From a virus, in the IMG/VR virus record IMGVR_UViG_3300042691_039146, positions 1-42,818 of that record: DNA of 42,818 nucleotides, one strand, 5' to 3'. A program made the translations under genes and the position numbers. Under the pieces are notes generated by a model. The model saw nothing but the letters and a program-made list of their open reading frames with translations. It was not told the origin of the DNA and searched no databases. Of this stretch, positions 1,148 to 41,916 are shown in pieces (the first letter of the stretch is position 1; the number at the start of each line of letters is the position of its first letter).

Positions 1148-1155
1148 TATTTATA
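1148..1155 (+). promoter_or_regulatory. Candidate late promoter element TATTTATA (gene at 1182)
   Basis: An exact TATTTATA lies 26 nt upstream of the start codon at 1182, overlapping the end of the preceding gene's stop region. The same octamer recurs before many structural genes in this window. Confidence 0.5.
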
Positions 1156-1181
1156 CATATAATTAAAATACAAACAATTTA

Positions 1182-1553
1182 ATGGAGAACTTAGCTTCAA
1201 TATTTTTACACAGCAGAACACAGGCACATCAGTTTCACACTAAAGTATCTGGACCTGGTTCATTAGCAATTCATTTGGCATTAGAAACATATTATACTGA
1301 AATCGTTCCTATTATAGATGGTTTGATTGAGGCATATCAGGGCCAGTTTGGATTAATTCAATATAAACAAGTAAATGGTGTTGATAATAATGCAACCAAA
1401 GAAAACATAATTGCTTATTTTGATAAATTAATTGCAATATTAAAAAGAGAAAGAGAAACCGATGAATTACAAGAAAGTTGGATTCAAAACGAATTGGATA
1501 ATATTGCAAAATTGTTATATTCAACTAAATATAAATTGGTTAATTTGGCTTAA
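1182..1553 (+). CDS. DUF5856-like protein (ferritin/Dps-like fold suspected)
   Basis: A 123-residue, probably all-helical protein. The opening segment (HSRTQAHQFHTK, residues 10-21) followed by an ALETYYTEIVPIIDGLIEAYQG-type helix is the pattern I associate with DUF5856, a family found in T4-like phages and resembling four-helix Dps/ferritin proteins. His and Glu residues in the first two helices could bind metal, but a full ferroxidase set cannot be demonstrated by eye. It is 17 nt upstream of gp13, so it is probably co-transcribed with the neck genes from the TATTTATA element at 1148. The biochemical function is unknown; family recognition is from memory. Confidence 0.6.
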   Translation: MENLASIFLHSRTQAHQFHTKVSGPGSLAIHLALETYYTEIVPIIDGLIEAYQGQFGLIQYKQVNGVDNNATKENIIAYFDKLIAILKRERETDELQESWIQNELDNIAKLLYSTKYKLVNLA

Positions 1554-1570
1554 CCGCAAATAAAAATTGA

Positions 1571-2725
1571 ATGTCAGTAAACTCAAACATAAATCATTAT
1601 CCAGGTTCATCATCATTTGAAATTGGACAAACTCCATTTGGAATTTATGATGATGATAGTATCTTTGGAGATGATGCTCCAAAAGTAGCACTTTGGTGTG
1701 CTAGAAGATTGGGATATCCTATTATCGATGTGGAATTAATCGATGATCAATTTTTTGCGTGTTTCGAAGAATCGATATCGGAATATGGTGCACAAGTAAA
1801 TCAATTTAATATTCGTAATAATTTATCAATTGTTTCCGGACAAAGTACATCGACAAACTATACCGGACAATTAGTAGATGGTTCATTTGTTCCTACAATA
1901 GTAAGAATAAGTGATGCGTATGGAACTTTAGCAGGAGTTGGAGGAAGAACTGATATTAAGAGGGGTGTTATTAGTGCAAGTGCTAATACACAATCATATG
2001 ATTTAAAAGAATTTGCAGAAACACATGAAAGTGGAAGTAGAATAGAAATTACAAAAGTTTATTTTGAACCTAGACCTGCTTTATCAAGATTCTTTGACCC
2101 ATATGCAATTAGTGGTATGGGAACTTTGAATATTACACAAGAATTTGGGTTTACATCATTTTCTACTGCAACGCAATTCGTATTATTACCTTTTTATGAG
2201 GATTTATTAAGAATTCAGGCAATTGAATTTAATGACCAAATTCGTAAATCTGCTCATACATTTAATATTGTAAATAATCAATTGCAAATATTTCCAGTAC
2301 CAACTACTGATCATAAAATATTTTTTGAATATTATGTTAAAAAAGAATTTGAAAAAAATTCAATAACAACTACTCCAAATGTTATATCCGACTACTCTAA
2401 TATGAGATATAATTTTATACCTTATAGAAAAATAAATGATGTTGGAAGACAGTGGATTAGAAAATATACATTGGCTCTGTCCAAAGAATTATTAGGAGCT
2501 ATCAGAGAGAAATATAATACTATTCCTATACCTGGTGGGGAAACCACTTTGGATGGTGCGCAACTTAGAGCAGAGGCTACAACTGAAAAAGAAAACCTTA
2601 TTACACAATTGAGAGAAAACTTAGAAGAATTAAGTAGAAAAACTCAATTTGAAAATAAGGCAGCAGAGGCTCAGCAACAACTAGAAATGTTACAAAAAGT
2701 TCCACTAGCAATTTATATAGGATAA
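1571..2725 (+). CDS. 13: Neck protein gp13-like
   Basis: A 384-residue protein matching T4-type gp13, which with gp14 closes the filled head and forms the neck that receives the tail. The N-terminal stretch has the pattern of the environmental T4-like gp13 group (FGIYDDDSIFGDDAPK, WCARRLGYP, then an acidic segment ending FEESISEYG, residues ~25-75). A long helix rich in Glu/Gln (residues ~330-375) closes the protein. It is longer than T4 gp13 (about 309 residues). It is followed after a single base by the gp14-like gene, the same order as in T4, which supports both calls. Confidence 0.8.
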   Translation: MSVNSNINHYPGSSSFEIGQTPFGIYDDDSIFGDDAPKVALWCARRLGYPIIDVELIDDQFFACFEESISEYGAQVNQFNIRNNLSIVSGQSTSTNYTGQLVDGSFVPTIVRISDAYGTLAGVGGRTDIKRGVISASANTQSYDLKEFAETHESGSRIEITKVYFEPRPALSRFFDPYAISGMGTLNITQEFGFTSFSTATQFVLLPFYEDLLRIQAIEFNDQIRKSAHTFNIVNNQLQIFPVPTTDHKIFFEYYVKKEFEKNSITTTPNVISDYSNMRYNFIPYRKINDVGRQWIRKYTLALSKELLGAIREKYNTIPIPGGETTLDGAQLRAEATTEKENLITQLRENLEELSRKTQFENKAAEAQQQLEMLQKVPLAIYIG

Positions 2726-2726
2726 T

Positions 2727-3182
2727 ATGCCACGTTTTAATTCAGCCAGAGATATAAAATTTTTCGAACAAATTTCTTCGGAAATGGTTAATGATGTGAT
2801 AGAAACATTGGTAACCCTTTTCAAAGTAAATGTGTTGGAAACTGCATATAATCTTTATGGAGAATCTCTTAATAAAAAATATTATAAAGGGATGGAAACA
2901 TATTGTATGATTGAAAGAGCTGATACTGAAACAAACTATGAAGGTTATGGTTCAGATACATCTAGAACTTCTAATTTTAGATTCAACCGTCATACGCTAA
3001 TAGATAATGATTTTTATCCAGAAGTGGGTGATGTAGTTTTATTAGATGGCTCTTATTATGAAATATCAAATGTGAAAGAGGATCAATGGATAGGTGGACA
3101 AGGAATAAATAAGTTTTCAGTAATTTGTGAAACATTCTTAAGTAGAAACACTGTAATCAACTTAGAACAAATAGTTAGATAA
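2727..3182 (+). CDS. 14: Neck protein gp14-like
   Basis: A 151-residue protein immediately after gp13, the T4 position of gp14 (neck/head completion). It carries the features seen in the family: an early helical segment, NLYGESLNKKYYKG (residues ~43-56), a central Gly/Asp-rich stretch, and the EVGDVVLLDGSYYEISNVKED segment (residues ~92-112), which is typical of phage head-tail joining proteins. It is shorter than T4 gp14 (about 256 residues), so it may be a compact version. It ends in a TAATG-type overlap with the next gene, indicating translational coupling. I am more sure that it is a head-tail connector component than of exact gp14 orthology. Confidence 0.7.
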   Translation: MPRFNSARDIKFFEQISSEMVNDVIETLVTLFKVNVLETAYNLYGESLNKKYYKGMETYCMIERADTETNYEGYGSDTSRTSNFRFNRHTLIDNDFYPEVGDVVLLDGSYYEISNVKEDQWIGGQGINKFSVICETFLSRNTVINLEQIVR

Positions 3183-4072
3183 TGGCAGATAACAAATTTT
3201 CAAAAATAGTAAAACAAGATGAATCCAAAATGTTGGGAATATCCCTTTTGGATGTTGATACTATTATTGCAAATTATATGGAATTACATTTGATTCCTGA
3301 AGTTGAATCAAATGGTAATAAAATAAAAATTCCTTTAGTATATGGTAATGCTGAAAGATGGAAATCTGCTCAAAAAGATGGATATTTAAAAGATAAATTG
3401 GGAAAGATTCAATTACCAATTATTATGTTTAAGAGAAATTCAATAGAACAAAATGAATCTATGAAATTTCTTAAAGACCATAGAGTAACATATCCAACTG
3501 TAAAAAAATATTCACAAAAACATGCATATGATAGATTCTCATTATTGAATCCGGATTTTAAAAGAAGATTTGAAGCATATGATGTTAGGATGCCTAATTA
3601 TGTAACCTTAACATATGAGGTTGTATTTTGGACAGGATATACGGAACATAATAATAAAATAATAGAGCAATTCCAATATGCAAGTGAACAATATTGGGGT
3701 GAAGATACAAATTATAAATTTAGAGTAATTGTTGGTAATTTTGATAACCAACAAGAAGTGGGCGCTGGTTCGGAAAGAATAATTAGAACTAATCTTTCAT
3801 TGACTGTTAATGCTTACTTATTACCTAAAAGATTTGATACCCAACCTACTACACAAAAAGGATTCAGTATCAGAAAAGTTATTGTATCAAATGAGGTTGT
3901 ATTACAAGGTGGAGATGGTTATGATTTAAATGGAAGATTAACTACATCTTTAGAAAAACCATTGGAGAAATTTGGTTCTCAATTATTAGGAAATAAAGTT
4001 GAAACTGAATCAAATGATATATTTGGCGACCCAATTCAAACTGAAGATGGAAATGATTTAATAGCTGAATAA
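3182..4072 (+). CDS. 15: Tail completion / sheath stabiliser, gp15-like
   Basis: A 296-residue protein overlapping the gp14 stop by one base. Recognisable segments are LLDVDTIIANYME (residues ~22-34), the IPLVYGNAERW stretch, LPIIMFKRNSIEQ, and a central YVTLTYEVVFWTGYTEHNNKIIEQF (in pieces) like the strand-helix region of gp15, which caps the tail tube and sheath at the neck. The gene order gp13-gp14-here fits T4 gp15. In T4 the next gene group is the terminase and then gp18. Here an 18-kb fibre island follows instead, and gp18 resumes at 22269. The identification rests on position and pattern. Confidence 0.58.
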   Translation: MADNKFSKIVKQDESKMLGISLLDVDTIIANYMELHLIPEVESNGNKIKIPLVYGNAERWKSAQKDGYLKDKLGKIQLPIIMFKRNSIEQNESMKFLKDHRVTYPTVKKYSQKHAYDRFSLLNPDFKRRFEAYDVRMPNYVTLTYEVVFWTGYTEHNNKIIEQFQYASEQYWGEDTNYKFRVIVGNFDNQQEVGAGSERIIRTNLSLTVNAYLLPKRFDTQPTTQKGFSIRKVIVSNEVVLQGGDGYDLNGRLTTSLEKPLEKFGSQLLGNKVETESNDIFGDPIQTEDGNDLIAE

Positions 4073-4083
4073 TATAATATAAG

Positions 4084-6285
4084 ATGCCAAAAATTTCTCA
4101 ATTAAACCCAATATCTCAATTAACAACTAGTAGTATATTACCCGTTGTAGATAATGGTGCAACTCAAAATGTTACATTGAAAAGAGTAGTAGAATTCGTT
4201 AGTGCGAGTATCGATGTAACATTTGCTACTGAAATAGAGTTATTGCAAAGTGCATCTTCGGTTACATCTTCTTTAAATTCTTTTGCAAGTGCATCAATTT
4301 TATCGGTTGCAACTAAATTATCAACTTCATCTTTTGAAGCATATACCGCATCAGTTCAATCAACTAATACATCCTCTCTATTATTAACTTCATCTTTTAA
4401 TACTTTCACATCTTCTTATAAAGCCGATAGTGCAAGTTTTGATAGTAGAGTTGATAATTTGGAATTAATAAGTGTAACTCCTTTTTTATCATCATCTACT
4501 TTTAATACTTTTACTTCATCATATACGACTCATAGTTCTTCATTTGATAGCAGATTGGATATAGTTGAAGGAATAAATGTAACTCCTTTTTTAAGTGCTT
4601 CAACTTTTAACACTTATACTTCTTCAAATAATACCACTAATACAACTCAAAATAGTAGATTAAGTTCATTAGAAAGTAATAGTGGTTCTTACTTATTAAA
4701 ATCAGAGACTGGTTCATTTATTACTGAAGCGGAAACAGGAAGTTTCTTAACATCTATTCCAAATGGTATTATAAGTTCATCTGCACAAATAACTAATTTT
4801 GGATTTGCAACTACTTCATCAGTATTAAATATTGATACATCTTCATTAGTAACTACATCTTCATTTAATACATATACTGCAAGTATTTCAACTGCAAGTT
4901 TGGTGAGTAGATTACATTCAATTGAAAGTGTAAGTGGTAGTTGGATTACCGAAAGTGAAACTGGTTCATTTGCTTTAAGTGCAAATTTACCAATTGTAAC
5001 TCCGTTTTTAAGTTCTTCTACTTTTAATACATTCACACAATCTTATCAAACTGATAGTTCAAGTTTTAACACTAGAATAAATAATGTAACTGGAAGTATT
5101 GCAAGTGGAACAGTTAGTTCATCTATTCAAATAACTAATTTAGGATTTGCTACAACTTCCTCATTAGCAGTTGTAACACCATTCCTAAGTTCTTCGGTGT
5201 TCAATACATTTGCGACAAGTTCAAATACATTTACTGCAAGTGTTAATACAACAACTGCTTCATTGAATACTTTTAGTAGTTCAATTAATACATTCACTTC
5301 ATCATATACGACTCATAGTTCATCTTTTGATAGTAGGATTAACTCAATTGTAAATGGTAGTGGATTTGCAACAACTTCTTCATTCAATAGTTTAACATCG
5401 AGTTTTACAACATATAGTGGTAGTATAAACACTTACACTTCTTCAATGAATTCTTATACTGCAAGTATAAATTCAACAACCGCTTCATTGAATAGTAAAA
5501 CCGGTTCTTATGCAACAACTGGTTCAAATCAATTTAAGGCAGACCAAACTATTACGGGTTCATTGACGGTAACTGCATTAACCACAATTAGTTCATCTAT
5601 ATCCGCAAATAGTTCATCACTTTATTTGACAAGTGGTAGTAATTTATATGTTCAGAACAATGGATTAGTTGAAATTACAGGTTCATTGATAGTAAGTGGT
5701 TCAAATAATATAAATTTAGTAGTTCCTGTCTTAATAATAGGAACGGGAAGTGGAGATGAAGGTGGTGAAATAAATTTAGCAAAAGCAGTAACAAACACAA
5801 CTTTAACCGGTAGTGGTGTAACAGTTGATGTGTATAGAGATAGAGTACGAATATTTGAACAAGGTGGTGATGCAAGAGGTGTTTATATTGATTTAGCAAA
5901 AACACCTGCTGGTGTTGCCGGTGAATTATTATGGAAAGCAAGTGGTATTGTAAATGCAGGAACATTTGTAACATTAGATAATATAAAAGCAACGGTTACA
6001 ACAACAAGTAATAGAGGATTAAGTTTAGCAACTGTTGCTGGAACTGTTACAGGATATATTTCGGGTCATTATGTACTTTTAAGTGGTTCGCCAAATGGAG
6101 GTGTAAGTACGACTAGTTTATCAACAACTGCAACTTCTTCAATGTTTAGTTGGAATTTCACTAATCAAGGTGATACCTCTACTTACATTTTAAGAGATGA
6201 TACAAATAATAGAGTATATAGAATAACATTGTTAATTGGTGGTAGTTATAACAATAACTTCATTTCAATAGAAAGATTATTTTAA
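4084..6285 (+). CDS. Ser/Thr-rich tail fibre protein with SSTFNTFTSSY repeats
   Basis: A 733-residue fibre protein. The N-terminus (MPKISQLNPISQLTTSSILP, then VVDNGATQNVTL) is the common phage-fibre opening that anchors to the virion. Residues ~45-470 are repeats of the form TPFLSSSTFNTFTSS-Y-TTHSSSFDSRL with short ESETGSF links, dominated by Ser, Thr and Asn. This pattern suggests a trimeric rod. The GIISSSAQITN/GTVSSSIQITN signature occurs twice and is shared with the other fibres downstream. Residues ~520-733 are less repetitive and Gly-rich and may be a distal domain. There is no S74 chaperone domain. Start choice is clear (ATG after a TAAG-rich spacer, no SD). Host-binding fibre is an inference from composition and neighbours. 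Confidence 0.75.
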   Translation: MPKISQLNPISQLTTSSILPVVDNGATQNVTLKRVVEFVSASIDVTFATEIELLQSASSVTSSLNSFASASILSVATKLSTSSFEAYTASVQSTNTSSLLLTSSFNTFTSSYKADSASFDSRVDNLELISVTPFLSSSTFNTFTSSYTTHSSSFDSRLDIVEGINVTPFLSASTFNTYTSSNNTTNTTQNSRLSSLESNSGSYLLKSETGSFITEAETGSFLTSIPNGIISSSAQITNFGFATTSSVLNIDTSSLVTTSSFNTYTASISTASLVSRLHSIESVSGSWITESETGSFALSANLPIVTPFLSSSTFNTFTQSYQTDSSSFNTRINNVTGSIASGTVSSSIQITNLGFATTSSLAVVTPFLSSSVFNTFATSSNTFTASVNTTTASLNTFSSSINTFTSSYTTHSSSFDSRINSIVNGSGFATTSSFNSLTSSFTTYSGSINTYTSSMNSYTASINSTTASLNSKTGSYATTGSNQFKADQTITGSLTVTALTTISSSISANSSSLYLTSGSNLYVQNNGLVEITGSLIVSGSNNINLVVPVLIIGTGSGDEGGEINLAKAVTNTTLTGSGVTVDVYRDRVRIFEQGGDARGVYIDLAKTPAGVAGELLWKASGIVNAGTFVTLDNIKATVTTTSNRGLSLATVAGTVTGYISGHYVLLSGSPNGGVSTTSLSTTATSSMFSWNFTNQGDTSTYILRDDTNNRVYRITLLIGGSYNNNFISIERLF

Positions 6286-6291
6286 TAAGAT

Positions 6292-7092: not shown

Positions 7093-7101
7093 CAACCCTT
7101 A

Positions 7102-7109
7102 TATTTATA
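7102..7109 (+). promoter_or_regulatory. Candidate late promoter element TATTTATA (gene at 7135)
   Basis: Exact TATTTATA, 25 nt upstream of the giant fibre's ATG and 9 nt after a terminator T-run. A promoter is expected here because the preceding unit has been terminated. Confidence 0.6.
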
Positions 7110-10490: not shown

Positions 10491-10498
10491 TATTTATA
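10491..10498 (+). promoter_or_regulatory. Candidate late promoter element TATTTATA (gene at 10533)
   Basis: Exact TATTTATA, 34 nt upstream of the ATG at 10533, in a short intergenic gap after the first giant fibre. Confidence 0.55.
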
Positions 10499-11626: not shown

Positions 11627-11634
11627 TATTTATA
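11627..11634 (+). promoter_or_regulatory. Candidate late promoter element TATTTATA (gene at 11678)
   Basis: Exact TATTTATA, 43 nt before the ATG at 11678, inside an imperfect inverted repeat (CGTAT to ATACG). The leader that follows has no Shine-Dalgarno. Confidence 0.5.
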
Positions 11635-12736: not shown

Positions 12737-12997
12737 ATGGGAATTTTTACAAAAAACCAAAAGGTTGTATCTACTGAATTTGAAACATCAAAAGAAGAGA
12801 TTCAACAAGAAGAACAAATCGTTGAACCAAAGAAACCAAAAAATAATGGTGGAGTAGATTTAACGATAGAAGAGTTTGAGTATCTCTTCAGTTTAATTAA
12901 AAACTCAACATTTAAAGGTACTGAATTAGAAATTATTTACAGTATCATTCTTAAATTACAAAAGAGATATTTAGAAAAAAAAGAGAAGGGTAGTTAA
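12737..12997 (+). CDS. Small acidic/coiled conserved phage protein of unknown function
   Basis: An 86-residue protein: a charged, low-complexity N-terminal half (EEIQQEEQIVEPKKPK) and a helical C-terminal half (LTIEEFEYLFSLIKNSTFKG, then EIIYSIILKLQKRYLEKK). It is one of the few genes here with a reasonable Shine-Dalgarno (AAAGG 7 nt before ATG). The C-terminal helices resemble a small uncharacterised family encoded in T4-like structural regions, but I do not recognise a function. It is the last gene of its unit: a terminator overlaps its stop codon. A soluble chaperone or scaffold-type role for the fibres is a guess only. Confidence 0.6.
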   Translation: MGIFTKNQKVVSTEFETSKEEIQQEEQIVEPKKPKNNGGVDLTIEEFEYLFSLIKNSTFKGTELEIIYSIILKLQKRYLEKKEKGS

Positions 12998-13011
12998 TCT
13001 ACCCTTTTTTT
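12986..13011 (+). terminator. Intrinsic terminator overlapping the stop codon of the 86-aa gene
   Basis: An 8-bp stem (12986-12993 with 12999-13006, core GGGTAG/CTACCC) with a TTAAT loop that contains the stop codon, followed by seven T (13005-13011). Confidence 0.88.
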
Positions 13012-13033: not shown

Positions 13034-13041
13034 TATTTATT
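13034..13041 (+). promoter_or_regulatory. Candidate late promoter element (TATTTATT) before the structured RNA
   Basis: TAATATTTATTG lies 23 nt after a terminator T-run and about 5 nt before the first strand of the structured RNA at 13046. One base differs from TATTTATA, as at 22228. If it is the promoter, the RNA structure begins near the 5' end of the transcript. Confidence 0.5.
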
Positions 13042-13045
13042 GATA

Positions 13046-13203
13046 TATTGTTGGCCCGAAAGGGAAGTGGGCACATAAAGTGTAACCAACCGCGATAGAA
13101 GATGTAATTTTAAAGACTCCTAATGGTTAAATACCATAGTGTGTCATTCTTATATTCTATCGAATCCTTTTTCCAACAATACTAACTCTCAAATTGTAGT
13201 ATT
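13046..13203 (+). ncRNA. Candidate structured leader RNA / cis-regulatory switch upstream of fibre gene
   Basis: A compact fold rich in G/C for this genome. The closing helix P1 is 9 bp, 13046-13054 with 13173-13181. Inside it are a CCC-GAAA-GGG hairpin (13055-13064) with an alternative partner GGGC at 13069-13072; a short GCAC/GTGT hairpin around 13071-13082; and an 8-bp helix, 13093-13100 with 13155-13162, enclosing a hairpin with an ATGGT/ACCAT stem (13123-13127 with 13133-13137). A further 7-bp hairpin (13178-13184 with 13197-13203) ends two bases before the ATG at 13206 and shares 13178-13181 with P1, so the two compete. GTTGG at 13050-13054 can also pair with CCAAC at 13086-13090. I do not recognise a known riboswitch or tRNA. 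A non-coding leader is inferred; no homologues could be checked. Confidence 0.55.
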
Positions 13204-13205
13204 AA

Positions 13206-15572: not shown

Positions 15573-15580
15573 ATATTTAT
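15573..15580 (+). promoter_or_regulatory. Candidate late promoter element TATTTATA (gene at 15611)
   Basis: Exact TATTTATA within TAATATTTATATA, 30 nt upstream of the second giant fibre. Confidence 0.58.
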
Positions 15581-15610
15581 ATAAACAAAAACGAAATAAA
15601 TTAAAAATAG

Positions 15611-19552: not shown

Positions 19553-20566
19553 ATGTTTGATGTATATTTTACCACCGGTTTAGGTAAAATCAATACGGGA
19601 GTAGATATTTGGGTAAATAATTGGTTGAGTGAAATAAGTAATAACTTAGACACTCAACCGGTTTTACTTATATATAGAAACAAACCCTCTGATTTTAATT
19701 TTGAAATACCAATTGAACACTATTGGTATAATGATGAGAATGGAAATCACAAAGATATTTTTGAAGAAAAATTTAATGAATGTAGAAGAGTAAATATTTT
19801 ACACGCTCATTATACTCCGTTTGAATTAATTGAGGAAAACTTAGATAAGTTATGGAGTTATGTAATTCATAATGATTTAAGTAGAGTTTATATTCAAAGT
19901 GGATTATCGGAATATGAATTTGGATGGATACCCCATTATTCTAAAGAGTGGGAAAATAAAATATTGATAAACGCAAAAAATAAAATTTGGGTAGGGTTAT
20001 ATGAATTATATGAAGATGTGTTTAATGGATATCAATCTATACCATCTTATTTTAATTTTATTCAAAATAAACCACTTTCGGAATCAAATAAAATAGGATT
20101 TACCAGTAGATGTGAAAGTAGAAAAAATCCATATTATTTAGATGGGTTGGAAGGATATATGTTTACTAATATTAGACCATTTCAAAAGACTTGGAAATTA
20201 GATAAAAATATAGACTTTTCAAAATTAAAAAAAATACAATTTGAAAGTGAATATAGTGAAAAATATTATGAGATGGATTGGGGAATTTCTCATTCCGCTT
20301 TTAATGCTGAACCATTTGGTTATTCAATATTTCAAAATGTAGATTGGGGTAAATTACCGATTTTAAGCAATGATTGGTATCCATCTATAAGTTATAAATT
20401 TAGAGCTAGTAATAAAAAGGAATTTCTAAATATTTATAAAGGTATTACAGAGTTATCATATGAAGAAAAGAAAATAGAGTTTCAAAATTTAAAAACTCAA
20501 CTCATTGATAACTTTGATAATAAGCATATTTGGAAAGAAAAATTAATAAAAATATATAATGCCTAG
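19553..20566 (+). CDS. Probable glycosyltransferase (GT-B type)
   Basis: A 337-residue soluble protein, not fibre-like in composition. Features suggesting a GT-B glycosyltransferase are an N-terminal GLGKINTGVDIWVNNWL segment (residues ~8-24, similar to the Gly-rich donor loop followed by a helix), VNILHAHYTPFEL (in the position of the HxH acceptor-side strand), IGFTSRCESRKNPYYLDGL in the middle, and FNAEPFGYSIFQN near the E-x7-E-like donor site. No TM segment is seen. It is wedged between two fibre genes (3 bp after the S74 fibre, 8-bp overlap with the Hint fibre), so the likeliest target is a virion fibre rich in Ser/Thr. The assignment is by pattern and needs a profile search; an unrelated fibre-assembly protein is the main alternative. 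Confidence 0.5.
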   Translation: MFDVYFTTGLGKINTGVDIWVNNWLSEISNNLDTQPVLLIYRNKPSDFNFEIPIEHYWYNDENGNHKDIFEEKFNECRRVNILHAHYTPFELIEENLDKLWSYVIHNDLSRVYIQSGLSEYEFGWIPHYSKEWENKILINAKNKIWVGLYELYEDVFNGYQSIPSYFNFIQNKPLSESNKIGFTSRCESRKNPYYLDGLEGYMFTNIRPFQKTWKLDKNIDFSKLKKIQFESEYSEKYYEMDWGISHSAFNAEPFGYSIFQNVDWGKLPILSNDWYPSISYKFRASNKKEFLNIYKGITELSYEEKKIEFQNLKTQLIDNFDNKHIWKEKLIKIYNA

Positions 20567-21853: not shown

Positions 21854-21885
21854 TATAAATATTTTTTGGAAAAACACTATAAATA
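21854..21885 (+). promoter_or_regulatory. Tandem TATAAATA elements (T4 late-promoter consensus)
   Basis: Two copies of ACTATAAATAT (21852-21862 and 21876-21886), 24 bp apart, each contain TATAAATA, the exact T4 late -10 consensus. They lie between the Hint fibre and the 84-aa gene. A TATTTATA element follows at 21908, so both orientations of the octamer are present here. Confidence 0.4.
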
Positions 21886-21907: not shown

Positions 21908-21915
21908 TATTTATA
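21908..21915 (+). promoter_or_regulatory. Candidate late promoter element TATTTATA (gene at 21948)
   Basis: Exact TATTTATA, 32 nt upstream of the ATG at 21948, in an otherwise empty 100-bp gap. Confidence 0.58.
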
Positions 21916-22202: not shown

Positions 22203-22227
22203 ATAATGTTTCGCTGTTGATTTTAAT

Positions 22228-22235
22228 ATTTATTA
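22228..22235 (+). promoter_or_regulatory. Candidate late promoter element (TATTTATT) for tail sheath
   Basis: TAATATTTATTA, one mismatch from TATTTATA and 33 nt upstream of the sheath gene's ATG. Confidence 0.5.
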
Positions 22236-24583: not shown

Positions 24584-24591
24584 TATTTATA
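24584..24591 (+). promoter_or_regulatory. Candidate late promoter element TATTTATA for tail tube
   Basis: TAATATTTATATA, 17 nt upstream of the tube gene start. A separate promoter would allow extra tube protein relative to sheath. Confidence 0.5.
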
Positions 24592-26711: not shown

Positions 26712-26925
26712 TTATTCCGTTTTACTACACACTCAAATTTTTGATATATGTTATTATGGAAATGGTGGATTCACTCAATCCGAAATATATAATATGCCGA
26801 TACATTTGAGAAATTTCTACTATAATAGATTAGTAGATGCAAAAAAGAAAGAAAACGAAGCTAATAACAAAGCTAAAGTATCATCAGTTCCTAAAACACC
26901 ATCTAAAGTGAGAGTTAAGAGATAA
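26689..26925 (+). CDS. Frameshift-encoded C-terminal extension of the gp26-like protein (+1 frame)
   Basis: The +1 frame is open from 26689 to the TAA at 26923-26925, about 78 codons. It encodes QIFDICYYGNGGFTQSEIYN, MPIHLRNFYYNRLVDAKKKE and a basic tail (TPSKVRVKR). The YYGNGGF...YNMP-LRNFYY pattern is the extension I associate with proteins of this baseplate family, but there is no in-frame ATG before it: the first ATG (26794) comes after the YYGNGGF part. It is therefore best read as the tail of a frameshifted gp26 product, or as the same gene broken by a single T insertion in this phage or assembly. Independent initiation at 26794 would give only a 43-residue peptide. Confidence 0.6.
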   Translation, partial: GFFTLPSNYSVLLHTQIFDICYYGNGGFTQSEIYNMPIHLRNFYYNRLVDAKKKENEANNKAKVSSVPKTPSKVRVKR

Positions 26926-26940
26926 CTCTCATTTTAGTTT
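26910..26940 (+). terminator. Intrinsic terminator after the frameshift extension
   Basis: An 8-bp perfect stem GAGAGTTA/TAACTCTC (26910-26917 with 26923-26930), a 5-nt AGAGA loop and a T-rich tail. It overlaps the stop codon of the +1 frame, supporting a real gene end at 26925. Confidence 0.72.
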
Positions 26941-26946: not shown

Positions 26947-26954
26947 TATTTATA
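26947..26954 (+). promoter_or_regulatory. Candidate late promoter element TATTTATA (gene at 26975)
   Basis: Exact TATTTATA 7 nt after the terminator tail and 20 nt before the ATG at 26975. It would start the tape-measure/baseplate operon. Confidence 0.6.
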
Positions 26955-34483: not shown

Positions 34484-35266
34484 ATGGCAAATTTTAAACA
34501 TCTATCGGATTTAGAAATCCAACAAATGACCTTCGATTGGAGGTATCGTGGATTCACCACATTAGACTTATTAACCGAAGAGCAATGTGATGAAATCAAT
34601 GATGAATTAGAAAGATTAAGACAGGAAAGAAAAGGAACACTTACACCCGATGGTAAAGAATGGGGAGAGTGGGATCCATTTGCATATCCTCATAAAATTT
34701 CTGAAAAGTTAGAAAAATTATTCGTTCACCCTAAAATAATTGAAGCGTGTGAATTCCTTATGGAAGGGGAGATTGTGGGTATGCAGACTTGGGCGTACTT
34801 CAAACCACCTGGACAATTAGGTAGAGATATGCACCAAAATGCGTTCTACACAGGATGTGGGCATAATGAAATTATTAATACTGCATTAGCATTGGACAAT
34901 CATGATGCTGGTAATGGTGCAGTGTGGAATTATGAAGGCTCACATAGATTACCAACTCTTCCAATTGAAGTAGATGAGGAAAGAGCTAAAACCAATCCAT
35001 CATTTTGGAGAAACGAAAGAGGTAAACCGTGTGTAATGCCAGAGGGACATGATTTCCGTAAAGTGGAAGGAGTTCTTAAGAAGGGGCAGGTCGTTTTACT
35101 TCATTCACATTGTGTTCATGGTTCAGAACCAAATAATTCAAATCGTTTTAGAAGAAATTTCTTAGGTGGATATTTGAAAAGAGGTGCGTACTTCAATCAG
35201 GGTAATCATATGAAAAGAGAGCCTATTGAATTAAAACCTTTGCAAGAAAAATATTGGAATTCTTAA
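34484..35266 (+). CDS. PhyH-type Fe(II)/2-oxoglutarate dioxygenase-like protein
   Basis: A 260-residue protein of the phytanoyl-CoA dioxygenase superfamily: an N-terminal GFTTLDLLTEEQCDEIN, the QTWAYFKPPGQLGRDMHQNA strand (residues 101-120), ALDNHDAGNGAVWNYEGSHR (136-155), the distal His in HCVHGSEPN (His212) and the 2-oxoglutarate-type Arg in NRFRRN. The iron site normally reads H-x-D; here it is His117-Gln-Asn119, so the Asp ligand is replaced by Asn. The enzyme may still act or may have a different role. Such genes are frequent in marine T4-like phages, with unknown substrates. It lies between the baseplate operon and the polymerase gene. Confidence 0.8.
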   Translation: MANFKHLSDLEIQQMTFDWRYRGFTTLDLLTEEQCDEINDELERLRQERKGTLTPDGKEWGEWDPFAYPHKISEKLEKLFVHPKIIEACEFLMEGEIVGMQTWAYFKPPGQLGRDMHQNAFYTGCGHNEIINTALALDNHDAGNGAVWNYEGSHRLPTLPIEVDEERAKTNPSFWRNERGKPCVMPEGHDFRKVEGVLKKGQVVLLHSHCVHGSEPNNSNRFRRNFLGGYLKRGAYFNQGNHMKREPIELKPLQEKYWNS

Positions 35267-35284
35267 AAATTATTCGTATATTTG
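35254..35284 (+). promoter_or_regulatory. Host-type promoter for DNA polymerase gene
   Basis: TTG (35254-35256), a 20-nt spacer and TATATTTG (35277-35284), a perfect Bacteroidetes -7 box in the extended context TTCGTATATTTGT. The start codon at 35291 is only 6 nt beyond the box, so the transcript would be nearly leaderless. Confidence 0.8.
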
Positions 35285-35290: not shown

Positions 35291-36532
35291 ATGGTAAAAT
35301 TCGTAGAGAACAAAATATCCGGTAGAGAATTTCTAAAAAGATACACTTCTGAAAAAAGTGTAATATTCCCTTTATTTAAAAATAGAAAAGAGCACCCCGT
35401 AGTGAATAAACTACTGGGTGCTTTTGTTTTTATCGGAGATGATTGTTATGTTTTAACAAATGGACATAACGATTCTTTGGATGCACCATTAGAAGTGTTA
35501 AAATCAGGCGAAGCCCCTAAATTTATCTTTGATAGTAAATGGTTTCTCCATAAAATGAAATTACCCAATTCACATAGTGTTGATGTTCTATATCATCTCA
35601 ATCAGTTTAAAACTTATGAATATGATATGATATATAATTCTTTCACAAAGGGGTATCGTAATAAAGATGATTTAAGTTTTATACCAATTAGTATTATAAT
35701 AAAAGGTATAGTAGATTTTGTAAATGAAAACATTAAGTATGCGAATACGAAGGGGGTTGGGGGTTACGATTTCTACAATACCTTAGTCCTACCGGAATTC
35801 CAAAAAATTGAAAGTAATGGAATCCCTACAACACATGGTTATGAATATTCCCTTTATAACAACTTTACAACCACTGGCAGACCATCAAATACTTTTGCTG
35901 GGGTAAACTACTCCGCACTAAATAAATCGGATGGTAGCAGGGATTATATCGTTTCTAAGAGGGATGAATTGGTTCAATTTGATTTTGATGGATACCACGT
36001 TCGTTTGATAGCAAATTTAGTAGGAGAACCCATCCCCGAAGAATCCGCTCATGAGTGGTTAGGAAAACAATACTTTGGGAAAGAGGTATTGAGTGATGAG
36101 GAATATCTTAATAGTAAGAAATTAACATTCCAACAATTGTATGGAGGAATAGATGTCGAGAATTTAGAGATTCCATTTTTTCAAAAGACGGATGCATTTA
36201 TCAAAAAGATGTATAAAGACTTTTTGATTAATGGGTATTTGGAAACTAAAGTAGGTAAACGTATTCCATTCCAAAAAATAGATAATCATAATCCACAAAA
36301 GGTATTCAATTATTATTTACAATCATTGGAGACCGAAACGAATGCATTTCTAATTAAAAAATTAAACAAATTGTTAGAAAATAGGAAAACAAAATTAGTA
36401 TTATACACCTATGATTCGTTTTTATTTGATGTTGATAATAGTGATATTCTAATTTTGGATGATATAGAAAAGATTTTGAATAGAATTGCACCTACCGAAA
36501 TGCTAAAAAGTAAGACTTATGGAAATATCTAA
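35291..36532 (+). CDS. Family A DNA polymerase, polymerase domain only (divergent)
   Basis: A 413-residue protein with the three polymerase motifs of family A. Motif A region: FTTTGRPSNTFAGVNYSALN (192-211), then LVQFDFDGYHVRLIANLVG (227-245). Motif B: SKKLTFQQLYGG (275-286). Motif C: LVLYTYDSFLFDVD (369-382). Motif C reads Y-D-S where the family has H-D-E, keeping the metal-binding Asp375 only. Residues ~43-90 (FVFIGDDCYVLTNGH, FIFDSKWFLHKM) look like a shrunken 3'-5' exonuclease domain without its acidic residues. T4-like phages usually carry a family B polymerase. Start: the ATG at 35291; the in-frame TTG at 35282 lies in the -7 box. It could be a replicase or a repair/primer-extension enzyme. 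Confidence 0.78.
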   Translation: MVKFVENKISGREFLKRYTSEKSVIFPLFKNRKEHPVVNKLLGAFVFIGDDCYVLTNGHNDSLDAPLEVLKSGEAPKFIFDSKWFLHKMKLPNSHSVDVLYHLNQFKTYEYDMIYNSFTKGYRNKDDLSFIPISIIIKGIVDFVNENIKYANTKGVGGYDFYNTLVLPEFQKIESNGIPTTHGYEYSLYNNFTTTGRPSNTFAGVNYSALNKSDGSRDYIVSKRDELVQFDFDGYHVRLIANLVGEPIPEESAHEWLGKQYFGKEVLSDEEYLNSKKLTFQQLYGGIDVENLEIPFFQKTDAFIKKMYKDFLINGYLETKVGKRIPFQKIDNHNPQKVFNYYLQSLETETNAFLIKKLNKLLENRKTKLVLYTYDSFLFDVDNSDILILDDIEKILNRIAPTEMLKSKTYGNI

Positions 36533-36566
36533 TACTTATATAGTAGAAAAAGTATTAAATATTTTT
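36530..36566 (+). terminator. Weak terminator-like hairpin after the polymerase gene
   Basis: A perfect 8-bp A/T-rich stem TAATACTT/AAGTATTA (36530-36537 with 36550-36557) with a 12-nt loop. Its left arm begins at the polymerase stop codon. Five T (36562-36566) follow, just before the next ATG (36569). The stem is weak and the T-run short, so it may modulate translation or RNA processing rather than terminate. Confidence 0.4.
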
Positions 36567-36568
36567 AA

Positions 36569-36964: not shown

Positions 36965-36972
36965 TATATAAA

Positions 36973-39900
36973 ATGATTGCAATTAGTAAAATTATTGATG
37001 AAATTTTATTGGAACATTCCGTAACTTACCCAATACCATCGTTGAATGATATTGAGCAAGTAAATCATCTTATTGAATGTGCTAATAAATTAGGATATTC
37101 TCAATACGTTCCGTTTATAAAAGAAACATTTTTAAAAGAAGAAGATAGTAAAAACCCTTCAACTCCTGTAAAAAAGGATGATAGTAAAGAAGGAGAATCT
37201 TCTGAATTTCCTGGCAAATATCATTTAGGAGGTGGATATTATTCATCTAAGCAAGGAGGAGGAGTTGAATTTAAAAATGATAATGGAAACCTTAGACCCG
37301 TAACTCCTGAAGAAAAAGCAGAATTTGAAAAGAAATCTGGAACATCGGATGAAACTCCTATTGAGCCAGATACTAAACAACCACCACAGGAAACCCCTGC
37401 AGAGGATACACAAAAGGAAGATGATATTAAAAATAATCCTGAAAAAATTTTAAATGACCCATCTGCTAGTTCTAAGGATGTAGCAAGAGCTACTTTTTCT
37501 AAAATAAAAAACGATAACCTTAAAAGAAAGCAAAAAGATGATCCAGAGTATCAATCTAAACTTAAAAAGGATGTAGTTGAAAAAAATAATCAATTAGTAG
37601 ATGATTTTAGAGAAATAGAAAGTGAAGATGGTAAATTGGATGCTGAAGTAACCGAAAACGGTTCTATCTTAATTGGGGTTGAACATGGAGAAGGAAACGA
37701 AAGTACAAAACAAATTATAGATAAATTAAAATCTTTACCAAAAGATGCAAAGGTAATGTTTGTAGGCGAAGGCGGTGTTGGATTAGATGATAATGGTAAA
37801 GTTGATTTTGTAGGAGAGCAAGCTGAAATTAGAGATGCTTTTTTAGACCACTTTGAAAATGGTAGAGAAGAAAGTTGGGATGAAAATGGAGATGTAAGAA
37901 ATTCAGATGCACCTATATTTGATGAAATTGCTAAATCATATGGTGGTGATAAAAATAAAGCATTGGCATCAGTTTGGACTAATATGGTTGGTCAAGGAGA
38001 TGATTTGGATGCGGAAGATTATCTTACCGATGAAACAAAAGAATGGATTAAAAGTGAAGCTAAAAAAGGTGGTAGTGGAGAATTTGATGGAGATGTAGAT
38101 TGGAATAATCTTTCATTAGAACAAAAAGAAGATCTTTATCAATTGAATTATAGAGATGACCAAAATTATGGTGAAACCGAATTATCTAAAGGTCAAAAAG
38201 CATTTAATGATTTTAGACAAAAGGAATTAGATAGAAAAATAAAAGACGGAGAGGAAAAGGGTTATACTGTTATTGCAACAATGGGTAATTCTCATGTTGG
38301 AATGTGGAGAGAGCGAAATAAAAATAAAAAAGATACATTTAAACCACAATCTTTAAGAAACTTACAAAAAGAATTACCTGAAGTAGATAAAGATGTATTC
38401 AATAAAGAATCTGATATAGATAAAATACCTTCTGATAAAAAAGAAGAAATATCTATGAAGATTGATGAGTTAGCATCAAAGGCGGCTAAAGGAGAAGATT
38501 TCAATCTTTGTGATATAACTGTGCCTGATACAAACTTATATTGTGATGATAATCAGGGAATACCGAGAGCAGAAATGCCTCAATTCAAAGGTAAACCTCT
38601 TCCAGGAACTCCTGCTGAAGACCTTCCAAAAGATAGCAAGGGTGAAGTAGATACCGAACCTCTTTTCAAAAAAATGTTAAAAGAGAAAGGTATTAAAACC
38701 GTAGAAACCGAATTACCATCTGATAAATTAAAGGCAACACAAAGTGAATTAGTTGGTAGTAAGGTAGCAGGAATGGCAAAAGCATTGGAAGAAGACCCTA
38801 ACAATCCAGGTATTACTGCACCAATTTATGTAAGTAGAGATGGATTTGTAATTGATGGTCACCATAGATGGGCGGCAGTTACATCTGCGGCTATCAAAGA
38901 TGGTAAACCTGCTAATATGAAAGTTATTGTTGTGGATATGGATATTAAAGATGCTATCCCAATGTGTAACCAATTCGCTGAAGAGCAAGGAATTGCTGCA
39001 AAGAAAGCCGATGCAAATGATGGGGAAACTCCTAAACCTAAAAAAGCAGACGAAACCCCTAATCAGAGAGTTTATAATGTAGGTGGTAATTATTATTCAG
39101 ATACTCCAAACGGCCCTGCACAATATATTAAAACTGAAAGTGTTGTTAAAAAAATATTTGTAGAAGAAGATGTTAAATTTTTCCATTTAATATTTGAAGC
39201 AGTTGTAACAAAAGTAGATGGTAATGGTAACCCAATTAAATTAACTGTAATTGAACCAAAAGATCAACCTGAAGCTACGCAAAAAGCTGATCAAGAAGAT
39301 AAAGGAAGTGAGCAATCAACAAATGTAACACCTGTTAAAGGTGATTGGAAAAATAAGGCACTCCAACAAATGAGTAAAGACAAATATAAAGATTCTATTT
39401 TGGATGATAATCTTAAAGAGAATATTTCTAATATTGTTGATAAAATGTTGAATGGTGTAGATTTGACAGATGAAGAAAAAGTAATAGCTAAAGATTATAT
39501 AAAAATTGTTAAAACTGATTCTAAGGTAAAACTATATATTGCATCTAAAACAAAAGGTGATTGGTCTCAACAAGGATATATCAAAGTTGAAATAGGAAGT
39601 GGTAATGCTGCTAAAAAATGGGCAGATGAAGCGAGTGGTAAATATGATGTAACATCTGGTGCATCTTCTCAGGGTGTTTTTGGTAAGAAACAAAACTCTC
39701 CTGCAAAATTAAATGATAAACGAAAAAAGGCAAAGATAGAAGAAATCGATGAAAACACCATTATGTTTAATGGTAAAAAAATGACTAAATTGCCCGTTTT
39801 ATCATTTGATGAAATCAAATCCCAACTAAAATCTGAAAATCCTAATTTAGATGAAAAGGAATTAAATAAAAAAGCGGCAATTTTAGAAAGAAGAATAAAG

Positions 39901-41061
39901 AGATATAATGATAATATTGATGCATTTAAAGAGGTAATAAGAGAAGGTGGTGGTGAATTTGAATACGTTGATTTTGGAGATGTTGATACTCCTGAAAATA
40001 GAGGTAAGGCAATACAAAATATGGTTGATATAGCACTTGAAAACTTTAAAACTAAATTAGGCGAAAAAGCTAACGTTGAAGAAAATAAAGTGGTATTGGA
40101 TACCTTAGAAAAATTAAAGAAATTTGAAGGAATTAATTTAGAAACCGATGAAGAAGCTAGAAAGGAATATGAGCAAACCTTATCAGATTTGATTGTTCAT
40201 ATGACTAATAGTAAAGACTTTAGAGATGGTGTTGCTGATTTTGCGGAATATAAAGTTGCAATGGAATTATTAGGTAGAGGATATCCTACATATTTACCAT
40301 CTGATGAAGCATTTAAAACTGCGGATGTATTGGTTGTAAATTCAGCGGAACTAAGTGATTTATCGGATAAATCAAAAGCACTTCAACTTCTTTATGTAAC
40401 ATTAGAATTCTCCGGTGGTATAAGTGTTAAGTATCAAGGAGGTGGTGCTGGAAATAGTGATGAGAAGGTAAAGAAAACTAGATTTAAAAACAATGAAACT
40501 AGAAAGAGATTAAATGGTATGTTGGCTACATATGATACTATGTATCCTAATGATAGAATGCCACCTAATTTCCCTCCATCTCAAGAAACATTAGATGAGT
40601 TAAGTGCCGTTCATGAAGATAATAAAAAATGGGCAATTGAAAATGGTATCGCTACTGAAGCTGAACTTAAAAAAGCTGAAGAGTGGGCTGATAAAAGAAT
40701 CGAAGCGGTATTAAAAACATTCACTTCAAATGGTGTTATGGATTGTATGAGTGATGATGAGAAAGCTCGTTTTAAAGAAACTATGAGGTCTTATTATAGA
40801 AACCAAAAATTAATGGAGGTTATTTATAATAATGATGCTGATTATACTTTATTTGGAAATAGTAATCAGAAAATTAAAGTTAGTAAGGGAAAAGCAGTTG
40901 CAAATGAATCGGATGTAGCAGATGGGGTTGAAGAAATTTGTTATATGAAGATTAAAGATGATGTAGGATTTAATTATTCAAAGCAAGGAGATTGTACTGT
41001 TGTAAAACCCTCTAACCGTAACCCATCTGAAATTCATTCGCATAAGCCTTCAATAAAATAA
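36973..41061 (+). CDS. Giant multidomain protein: ParB/Srx-like plus candidate TraB-like and nuclease-like domains
   Basis: A 1362-residue soluble protein with at least four parts. (1) A helical start (ISKIIDEILLEHSVTYPIPS). (2) A domain at ~230-455 with ILIGVEHGEGNE, VMFVGEGGVG and ATMGNSHVGMW, reminiscent of the GxxH/GxxHxxG layout of TraB/EreA-type proteins. (3) A ParB/sulfiredoxin-like domain at ~575-680 with VIDGHHRWAAV (His630, His631, Arg632). (4) A C-terminal part with DFAEYKVAMELLGRGYPTYL and KTADVLVV (~1085-1125), then LEFSGGISVKYQGGGAG, a possible PD-(D/E)xK-type nuclease. A GGxYYS motif occurs twice (~85 and ~703). Charged linkers rich in Lys/Asp/Glu separate the parts. It may be an injected virion enzyme; domain 3 is the firmest call. 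Confidence 0.6.
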   Translation: MIAISKIIDEILLEHSVTYPIPSLNDIEQVNHLIECANKLGYSQYVPFIKETFLKEEDSKNPSTPVKKDDSKEGESSEFPGKYHLGGGYYSSKQGGGVEFKNDNGNLRPVTPEEKAEFEKKSGTSDETPIEPDTKQPPQETPAEDTQKEDDIKNNPEKILNDPSASSKDVARATFSKIKNDNLKRKQKDDPEYQSKLKKDVVEKNNQLVDDFREIESEDGKLDAEVTENGSILIGVEHGEGNESTKQIIDKLKSLPKDAKVMFVGEGGVGLDDNGKVDFVGEQAEIRDAFLDHFENGREESWDENGDVRNSDAPIFDEIAKSYGGDKNKALASVWTNMVGQGDDLDAEDYLTDETKEWIKSEAKKGGSGEFDGDVDWNNLSLEQKEDLYQLNYRDDQNYGETELSKGQKAFNDFRQKELDRKIKDGEEKGYTVIATMGNSHVGMWRERNKNKKDTFKPQSLRNLQKELPEVDKDVFNKESDIDKIPSDKKEEISMKIDELASKAAKGEDFNLCDITVPDTNLYCDDNQGIPRAEMPQFKGKPLPGTPAEDLPKDSKGEVDTEPLFKKMLKEKGIKTVETELPSDKLKATQSELVGSKVAGMAKALEEDPNNPGITAPIYVSRDGFVIDGHHRWAAVTSAAIKDGKPANMKVIVVDMDIKDAIPMCNQFAEEQGIAAKKADANDGETPKPKKADETPNQRVYNVGGNYYSDTPNGPAQYIKTESVVKKIFVEEDVKFFHLIFEAVVTKVDGNGNPIKLTVIEPKDQPEATQKADQEDKGSEQSTNVTPVKGDWKNKALQQMSKDKYKDSILDDNLKENISNIVDKMLNGVDLTDEEKVIAKDYIKIVKTDSKVKLYIASKTKGDWSQQGYIKVEIGSGNAAKKWADEASGKYDVTSGASSQGVFGKKQNSPAKLNDKRKKAKIEEIDENTIMFNGKKMTKLPVLSFDEIKSQLKSENPNLDEKELNKKAAILERRIKRYNDNIDAFKEVIREGGGEFEYVDFGDVDTPENRGKAIQNMVDIALENFKTKLGEKANVEENKVVLDTLEKLKKFEGINLETDEEARKEYEQTLSDLIVHMTNSKDFRDGVADFAEYKVAMELLGRGYPTYLPSDEAFKTADVLVVNSAELSDLSDKSKALQLLYVTLEFSGGISVKYQGGGAGNSDEKVKKTRFKNNETRKRLNGMLATYDTMYPNDRMPPNFPPSQETLDELSAVHEDNKKWAIENGIATEAELKKAEEWADKRIEAVLKTFTSNGVMDCMSDDEKARFKETMRSYYRNQKLMEVIYNNDADYTLFGNSNQKIKVSKGKAVANESDVADGVEEICYMKIKDDVGFNYSKQGDCTVVKPSNRNPSEIHSHKPSIK

Positions 41062-41062
41062 A

Positions 41063-41094
41063 TTTGGATATTTGGTAATTTATTCGTATATTTG
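41063..41094 (+). promoter_or_regulatory. Host-type promoter for DUF1599 gene
   Basis: TTTG (41063-41066), a 20-nt spacer and TATATTTG (41087-41094) in the extended context TTCGTATATTTGT, an exact copy of the Bacteroidetes -33/-7 consensus. It begins 2 nt after the preceding stop and lies 17 nt upstream of the ATG at 41112. Confidence 0.85.
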
Positions 41095-41111
41095 TAAAAA
41101 CAAAATATAGA

Positions 41112-41471
41112 ATGGAAGAAAATATCAAATTAGAAGAAACTGCGATAGAGCATTGCGAAAGGGTGTATCCAGAAATGATGAAGGAGTTCAAAAAGATTCA
41201 ATCTGAAATGTATGAAACTTTTTGTAAGAAACAAAGAAACTATGGACCTGGTAATATTTCAGTAGGAACTGCATTACAAAGTAAAGAGGATGTAAAATTA
41301 TCACTTACAGGTCTTTGGTTTAGAATCAATGATAAAGTTCAAAGATTGAAGCAATTGGTAGTGATGGGACAGCCGGATGAAGTAGGAGAATCTATTCAAG
41401 ATACCTATGAAGATTTATCAGTTTATGGTATTATTGCTCAATTGGTTAGTAGAGGAAAGTGGGCTAAATAA
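41112..41471 (+). CDS. DUF1599 protein (nucleotide-modification-associated family)
   Basis: A 119-residue protein with the DUF1599 pattern: a first helix ending in EMYETFCKKQRNYGPGNIS (residues 36-54), ALQSKEDVKLSLTGLWFRIN (57-76), then DKVQRLKQLVVMG and GESIQDTYEDLSVYGIIAQL. The K-x-x-NYGPGNI and WFRINDKVQRL signatures are typical. The family has been linked to nucleotide modification systems and resembles MazG-like all-helical folds, but the activity is unproven. It has its own host-type promoter and a good terminator, and lies upstream of the SSB in a group of replication-type genes, consistent with nucleotide metabolism. Confidence 0.75.
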   Translation: MEENIKLEETAIEHCERVYPEMMKEFKKIQSEMYETFCKKQRNYGPGNISVGTALQSKEDVKLSLTGLWFRINDKVQRLKQLVVMGQPDEVGESIQDTYEDLSVYGIIAQLVSRGKWAK

Positions 41472-41512
41472 TTAGATAAATTACGGTTTGTAATATCTAA
41501 AAATATTTTTTT
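41472..41512 (+). terminator. Intrinsic terminator after DUF1599 gene
   Basis: An 11-bp bulged stem (41472-41478 with 41494-41500, and TTAC/GTAA at 41481-41484 with 41490-41493; a two-base AA bulge on the left arm), a GGTTT loop and, after AAATA, seven T (41506-41512). Confidence 0.72.
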
Positions 41513-41531
41513 GTTTTAATATATTCGTATA

Positions 41532-41539
41532 TATTTATA
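41532..41539 (+). promoter_or_regulatory. Candidate late element TATTTATA overlapping a host-like -7 (gene at 41566)
   Basis: TTCGTATATATTTATAG combines the TTCG-TATA-TTT context of the host-type promoters with TATTTATA, 26 nt upstream of the ATG at 41566. The nearest TTG (41511-41513) gives only a 16-nt spacer, so late use is more likely than host use. Confidence 0.45.
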
Positions 41540-41565
41540 GATGATTTCCCACTTAATTCTTCATT

Positions 41566-41847
41566 ATGAACCGTTTGTTACAAAAACTAATTAATTACTT
41601 TTTTCCCTTTAAAGAGGGAGAGTTCCCCGCAACACCAAAAGGATTTAGAGCCGCTCAAAAATGGGCTCAATCTCAACCACATTCTTATTCAGAAAATCTT
41701 TCACTTTGGGAAGAAATGTATGAACACCATATGGATGGGTATTGGACATTGGCTAAAATCAATGAACAAAAAAGATTGGCTGATAAATACAAAGGTGTAA
41801 AAGAGAATCGAAAGAATACAAAAAAATATTCTTTAAAAAAATCTTAA
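41566..41847 (+). CDS. Small basic protein of unknown function (93 aa)
   Basis: A 93-residue protein with an amphipathic start (RLLQKLINYFFPFKEGEFPA), an aromatic middle (GFRAAQKWAQSQPHSYSENL, then LWEEMYEHHMDGYWTLAKIN) and a very Lys-rich end (RKNTKKYSLKKS). No catalytic motif or membrane anchor is visible. The gene forms its own short unit, bounded by a terminator upstream and by the composite promoter/hairpin downstream. The basic tail could bind nucleic acid; nothing more can be said. Confidence 0.55.
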   Translation: MNRLLQKLINYFFPFKEGEFPATPKGFRAAQKWAQSQPHSYSENLSLWEEMYEHHMDGYWTLAKINEQKRLADKYKGVKENRKNTKKYSLKKS

Positions 41848-41852
41848 AAGAC

Positions 41853-41883
41853 TTGGAACTTAGAGATATATTTCGTATATTTG
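41853..41883 (+). promoter_or_regulatory. Host-type promoter for gp32-like SSB gene
   Basis: TTG (41853-41855), a 20-nt spacer and TATATTTG (41876-41883), again in TTCGTATATTTGT. The spacer contains the left arm of a 12-bp inverted repeat, and the -7 box forms most of its loop. Confidence 0.85.
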
Positions 41884-41898
41884 TATCTCTAAGTTTTT
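41857..41898 (+). promoter_or_regulatory. 12-bp inverted repeat straddling the SSB promoter (operator or terminator)
   Basis: AACTTAGAGATA (41857-41868) and TATCTCTAAGTT (41884-41895) are perfect complements with a 15-nt loop that holds the -7 box TATATTTG. Five T (41894-41898) end the structure. It could be an operator whose occupant blocks the promoter, a terminator for the 93-aa gene, or both. The right arm would cover the transcription start. Confidence 0.65.
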
Positions 41899-41908
41899 GA
41901 TTTGCGAA

Positions 41909-41916
41909 TATTTATA
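41909..41916 (+). promoter_or_regulatory. Candidate late promoter element TATTTATA for SSB gene
   Basis: TATTTATA lies within the perfect palindrome CGAATA-TTTA-TATTCG (41905-41920), 46 nt upstream of the ATG. It would give the SSB gene late as well as early transcription. Confidence 0.5.

Follow-up and report, generated by a model that had tools for sequence, protein, structure and literature searches.

What does it mean when a T4-related phage carries, upstream of one structural gene after another, an octamer whose reverse complement is, letter for letter, the T4 late promoter? The question is raised by IMG/VR virus record IMGVR_UViG_3300042691_039146, a 42.8-kb fragment (positions 1 to 42,818; hereafter the window, meaning the whole stretch analyzed) from the structural region of a T4-related myovirus, in which the octamer TATTTATA recurs in intergenic DNA. 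The T4 late promoter, TATAAATA, is read in Straboviridae by gp55 together with gp33 and the gp45 clamp; it consists of one 8-bp box with no -35 element and an A/T-rich melting region downstream (PMC2988020). An earlier note on the window had proposed that this lineage either reads a different late motif or recognizes the element in the opposite sense. We favor the former, and put at roughly 80% the probability that ATATTTATA, built on the core TATTTATA, acts as the late promoter in a large clade of uncultivated, aquatic myoviruses related to T4 and transcribed by Bacteroidota RNA polymerase, with a T4-like mechanism and a gp55-like sigma factor. In the open literature searched, we found neither a published TATTTATA late promoter nor one from a T4-like phage of Bacteroidota.

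A recurrent, oriented box upstream of structural genes

The window encodes a major head protein, a head-tail adaptor, the tail sheath and tail tube, the baseplate wedge and hub, and tail-fiber proteins, with a gene for a gp32-like single-stranded DNA (ssDNA)-binding protein at its right end. By sheath protein, its nearest named relatives (~47 to 50% identity) are Flavobacterium phage immuto (Immutovirus; complete genome, 160 kb), Microcystis phage Mel-JY01, and an uncultured 484-kb phage; hundreds of uncultivated contigs are closer than any of these.

The sense strand of the window holds 12 copies of TATTTATA, 10 of which are intergenic, all in the sense of the gene; two further intergenic copies have the form TATTTATT. 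Shuffling the 20 intergenic segments of the window with dinucleotide content preserved gave an expectation of 1.0 intergenic copy of TATTTATA (maximum, 6 in 1,000 shuffles), and the longer word ATATTTATA proved the better core, with 9 intergenic copies compared to 0.43. Counted on both strands of the entire window, TATTTATA is only mildly enriched (19 compared to 12 expected), and the signal sits in the intergenic sense strand. Equal frequency inside genes, which the earlier note had raised as a reason to discard the proposal, was not what we found: the octamer is concentrated in intergenic DNA and rare in genes. The positions listed there for TATTTATA and TATTTATT were all correct, with gaps of 17 to 46 nt from the octamer end to the listed starts. 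Its description of a predominant TAATATTTATA context holds for both TATTTATT copies and for 4 of the 10 TATTTATA copies, ATATTTAT being what all 12 intergenic copies have in common. Nor does TATAAATA appear only at 21854, 21878, and 34462, as had been stated; the plus strand has seven copies, of which those three are the intergenic ones.

The same word emerges from the relatives. ORF (open reading frame) upstream regions were gathered from ~140 related loci, and removal of near-duplicates left 429 regions. With no motif assumed, the strongest 8- to 10-mers in this set were ATATTTAT, ATATTTATA, and TATATTTATA. There were 255 copies of ATATTTATA where 20.4 were expected; 9-mers of the same composition had 0 to 67 copies, and the reverse complement of ATATTTATA had 7. 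In upstream regions, TATAAATA was near background (7 compared to 270 for TATTTATA). In the resulting weight matrix, ATATTTATA is essentially invariant and is followed by T-rich and then A-rich positions. Matrix hits in upstream DNA numbered 290 in sense and 9 in antisense, corresponding to densities of 11.4 and 0.35 per kb, compared to 0.03 per kb in genes (~400-fold upstream over genic), and distances from box to start codon peak at 16 to 32 nt.

Conservation was gauged among orthologs anchored on window genes, scoring the pattern [AGC]TA[TC]TTAT[AT] within 90 nt upstream. The tail sheath gene (22269), with the variant TATTTATT 34 nt upstream at 22227 to 22234, has the box in 68 of 69 orthologs, compared to 4.2 in shuffles; for the tail tube gene (24609; box at 24584 to 24591, 17 nt upstream), the count is 76 of 77, compared to 2.0. 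The box is likewise present before 10/11 orthologs of ORF 26975 (26947 to 26954, 20 nt upstream; 0.5 shuffled), 10/12 of ORF 21948 (21908 to 21915, 32 nt upstream; 0.8 shuffled), and, for the tail-fiber-like genes, 4/4 of 7135 (7102 to 7109, 25 nt upstream) and 4/5 of 15611 (15574 to 15581, 29 nt upstream). All of these boxes are on the plus strand of the window. Flanking DNA diverges while the box is kept, even among tube orthologs whose proteins share as little as 46% identity. By contrast, none of the 152 orthologs of the operon-internal genes 27258, 29687, 31693, 31971, and 34080 is preceded by the box. ORF 20559 was dropped as support: the box occurs before 27 of its 33 orthologs, and because the word there consists of codons for the conserved C-terminal ...IYN of the upstream gene, this conservation is coding and confounded. 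Chance, or the A/T composition of a 32% GC genome acting on an A/T word, would suit the modest whole-window excess; its probability is negligible, and we count it as already refuted by the intergenic count (10 compared to 1.0), the count in relatives (255 compared to 20), the rarity of composition-matched words, and the ortholog conservation.

Orientation separates the two readings of the earlier note. As a positive control, T4 was scanned in the same way; its genes 18 (sheath), 19 (tube), 20 (portal), 22, and 24 are preceded by TATAAATA in sense, and the few TATTTATA copies in that region of T4 lie mostly where gene pairs diverge. Over whole contigs, the strand balance of ATATTTATA is 32:0, 0:20, 0:12, 0:10, 12:0, and 16:1 in the clade and 6:7 in the T4 genome; a reversed-word control of this count was uninformative, as the word reads the same backwards. 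Since the box is one-sided in the clade and balanced in T4, it appears to be read in the gene's sense. Aligned in that sense, TATTTATA departs from TATAAATA at just two positions, 4 and 5, so that no inversion is needed to relate them, and their reverse-complement relation follows from near-palindromy. A late sigma that recognizes T4's TATAAATA on the other strand would account for the exact complementarity, but initiation would then point away from every downstream gene. The strict orientation of the box with the gene that follows (290:9 upstream, one-sided on whole contigs), the two-base difference in the same sense, and a purine and A preference 4 to 6 nt past the box, on the gene side, also count against such a sigma, which we regard as highly improbable. 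A different late motif, on the other hand, is supported by the unbiased word discovery, the ortholog conservation, the absence of the box inside operons, and its confinement to structural and lysis modules in immuto, whose genome is complete. Many TATAAATA matches in immuto overlap TATTTATAAATA and were therefore not accepted as independent T4-type boxes.

The remaining boxes of the window, also on the plus strand, lie at 1148 to 1155 (TATTTATA within the core ATATTTATA, 26 nt before ORF 1182), 10491 to 10498 (34 nt before ORF 10533), 11627 to 11634 (43 nt before ORF 11678), 41532 to 41539 (26 nt before ORF 41566), and 41909 to 41916 (46 nt before the ssDNA-binding protein gene, 41963), and as the variant TATTTATT at 13034 to 13041, between a terminator-like hairpin (12981 to 13011) and a structured noncoding stretch (13046 to 13205). 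The claim that several copies directly follow a terminator stands for the box at 13034 (hairpin end, 13011) and for that at 26947, which begins 10 nt past a terminator-like hairpin at 26903 to 26937; for 22227 it holds weakly. Upstream of 41909, an inverted repeat whose loop exceeds the length limit of the scan was seen by direct inspection. Two genic copies were not counted as promoters: the one at 40821 is without the leading A, and the one at 20431 to 20438 has the leading A but lies in coding DNA, and the next start (ORF 20559) is 120 nt away.

These contexts bear on whether the box is instead an RNA or protein-binding element, serving leader stability, translation, replication, or packaging, and no promoter at all. 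Its constant position upstream of genes and the A/T-rich leaders would suit such a role. Distances to the start codon of 15 to 70 nt are, however, unlike those of a ribosome signal; genes inside operons are without the box; the boxes at 13034 and 26947 come right after terminators, the former preceding a noncoding structured stretch; and the box occupies the same position as the known late promoters of T4, before the same genes. We consider a nonpromoter role improbable and the box a probable transcription start signal.

Two side observations follow. None of 200 shuffles of the stretch at 13034 to 13205 folds as well as the native sequence (z = -2.8); Rfam has no match for it, and blastn against the fetched related loci gave no clear relative. 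In many distant relatives (e.g., loci L112, L040, and L117), a GGAG Shine-Dalgarno-like stretch precedes the sheath or tube start codon; the window and its closest relatives are without it upstream of these genes.

Two predicted promoter classes in the clade

In immuto, the late box, as [AC]TATTTATA, is found in 16 of 25 upstream regions of the structural region and in 2 of 28 of a small-gene cluster at 61 to 77 kb (Fisher, 2e-5); it also precedes the terminase, portal, tape-measure, hub, and lysis operons. A second class, typically TTG-N20-TATATTTAG/G, shows the reverse distribution, with 1 of 25 in the structural region and 20 of 28 in the small-gene cluster (Fisher, 5e-7), and marks small early-type genes. 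No upstream region of immuto carries both. The primary-sigma promoter of Bacteroidota is TTTG/TANNTTTG (PMC6847099), and by its sequence the second class is this housekeeping promoter. In several relatives, the pattern TTG-N20-TATNTTTR greatly outnumbers its reversed control and keeps almost entirely to one strand (immuto, 34:2; G012, 36:3; G013, 2:39), whereas in T4 it is at background and balanced (1:1). This one-sided enrichment indicates that most of the clade, for which a host has been identified in a few isolates only, uses Bacteroidota polymerase.

The window has three exact host-type promoters, all TTG-N20-TATATTTG on the plus strand: at 35254 to 35284 before the ORF listed at 35282, at 41064 to 41094 before ORF 41112, and at 41853 to 41883 before the ssDNA-binding protein gene, where it stands in tandem with the late box 3' of it. 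The same tandem order, host-type promoter and then late box, occurs in two relatives, G001 and G010. A scan of the window for E. coli sigma-70-type promoters found nothing above the level of shuffles. The TTG given as the start of ORF 35282 sits inside the host-type -7 box, and the true start is likely the ATG at 35291.

The presence of a host-type class raises the possibility that the late box is itself a promoter for the host primary sigma, alone or with a phage activator, having a degenerate Bacteroidota -7 element and no need of a phage sigma. The late box does share T-12, A-11, T-8, and T-6 with TAHHTTTG (in an alignment that we made from PMC6847099); TATATTTATA, the commonest 10-mer, nearly satisfies the -7 element; and two sites in G012 carry TTG at N20 plus the late box. 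Yet TTG at the host spacing of 19 to 21 bp occurs in 13 of 395 late sites, compared to 17 of 395 at a control offset, so there is no -33 element, whereas the host-type boxes of immuto have it in 20 of 26 cases, compared to 3 at control. The logo of the late box is likewise without a conserved upstream block. Positions -7 and -5 of the late sites, which were selected with a TATTTATA core, are A in essentially all, not T and G, and so depart from the -7 element TAHHTTTG. In immuto, moreover, the two classes are nearly exclusive, with no region containing both. A host-sigma promoter is therefore unlikely in our judgment, though the least improbable of the alternatives considered.

Downstream of the late box the DNA is A/T-rich, and among 142 nonredundant contexts, position +4 past the box is a purine in 82% and position +6 an A in 61%. 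Placing the box at -13 to -6, the T4 register, would put this A at +1.

The sites in G012 (C1, 61055 to 61087 and 91761 to 91793) merit separate mention: the host-type -33/-7 promoter overlaps the late box there (TTG-N20-TATATTTATA), and they are possibly fused early/late promoters. Mel-JY01 (PP395634.1; loci L156 to L159) is deposited as a Microcystis elabens phage, yet it groups with a Flavobacterium phage and has Bacteroidota-type promoters, with CGTATATTTGT enriched and TTG-N20-TATNTTTR at 15:6. The culture may have contained a Bacteroidota companion that is the true host.

A candidate reader of the box

With the PHROG profile of T4 gp55, the sole match in immuto is gp118 (78174 to 78872; 232 amino acids), at a weak E value of 0.008. 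The gp118 family is conserved in hundreds of contigs as well as in Mel-JY01, LR756508, and G005, the last being a 123-kb contig that combines a gp118 homolog with a sheath gene and 32 sense-oriented boxes. Of 35 family members, 24 give weak matches to Pfam Sigma70_r2, against which T4 gp55 itself reaches an E value of only 0.004, and 14 match the late-sigma PHROG. In hhalign comparisons of the gp118 family with gp55, probability rose from 1% to 23% to 77% (P = 2e-5) as both profiles were broadened, and the alignment is collinear over residues 1 to 105, from the N terminus through region 2. Alignment of the candidate to E. coli RpoD was uninformative, as was that of gp55 to RpoD. A second gp55 profile, phrog_12791, had no match in the lineage, and a PDB sequence search with the candidate returned nothing. 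Loci fetched with the G005 candidate, which are independent of the earlier loci, have 86 copies of TATTTATA upstream, compared to 9 of TATAAATA. From these profile comparisons, we consider gp118 likely to be a gp55-like sigma, and its family would be the reader of the box.

Several points weigh against the late-promoter reading as a whole. The label "late" comes from the content of the genes behind the box, from which late firing is presumed. Ordinary hmmsearch does not single out gp118, whose link to gp55 is weak by single-profile scores. The sigma candidate was not seen in the window or in its closest, 88-kb relative, both of which are fragments; for the window, its small size would explain the missing gene. 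A gp45-type clamp was detected in 2 of 22 contigs (G002 and G003; E value, 1e-15), the others being fragments or below detection. TTG at the host spacing accompanies 6 of 28 late sites in immuto, so some sites could be dual. Finally, the late box is far weaker in Mel-JY01 (14 in upstream regions, compared to 2.5 shuffled) and absent from the sampled 50-kb part of LR756508; the changed box thus does not span all distant relatives.

The late-promoter reading is our best account. The clade would use a single box near -10, with no -33 or -35 element, as in the T4 late promoter, followed by an A/T-rich region for melting and initiation; transcription would begin a few nucleotides beyond the box, so that leaders would be short. 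A phage gp55-like sigma, for which immuto gp118 and its homologs are candidates, would most likely bring the host core polymerase to the box, while early-type genes and some replication genes would use the unmodified Bacteroidota promoter TTG-N20-TATNTTTR.

A probable shift of the late-promoter code

To our knowledge, the T4-like late-promoter codes recognized so far, from phages of enterobacteria, vibrios, aeromonads, and cyanobacteria, are all close to TATAAATA. The box described here resembles that of T4 in being a single 8-bp, sense-oriented element with no -35 or -33 partner, with A/T-rich DNA downstream, before the same structural genes (sheath, tube, and portal), in a lineage encoding a candidate remote gp55-like protein. 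Unlike in T4, the two central bases are TT instead of AA, a leading A is almost always present, the host polymerase belongs to the Bacteroidota type, and the clamp is found in some contigs only.

Variants of a similar kind are found in other T4-type late boxes before structural genes, namely, those of cyanophages (NATAAATA in S-PM2 and Syn9; PMC2984593), of Aeromonas phage Aeh1 (a/gC at -13/-12; PMC2988020), and of the Melnitz methylophage, whose upstream regions have eight copies of TATAAATA and one of TATTTATA. Those boxes, however, keep ATAAATA or alter the first bases only, whereas the box of this lineage is altered at its center. With the Bacteroidota primary-sigma promoter, which the same phages use for early-type genes (TTG-N20-TATATTTG/AG), the late box has part of the -7 core in common, but it has no -33 element and ends in TATA rather than TTTG.

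We lean toward the view that TATTTATA replaced TATAAATA as the late-promoter code across the clade, in step with the divergence of a gp55-like sigma fitted to Bacteroidota RNA polymerase, and that the downstream genes stayed the same. Hundreds of environmental phages belong to this lineage, and their host polymerase has an unusual sigma; here, the box has apparently shifted while the single-box logic was kept. If true, this would be a natural case of sigma region 2 and its box evolving in concert. Because immuto and its host, Flavobacterium sp. LMO8, are isolated, the proposal is directly testable, and it yields a rule for promoter annotation, a candidate reader gene (gp118 of a cultured phage), and a split between early and late genes that can be read from sequence.

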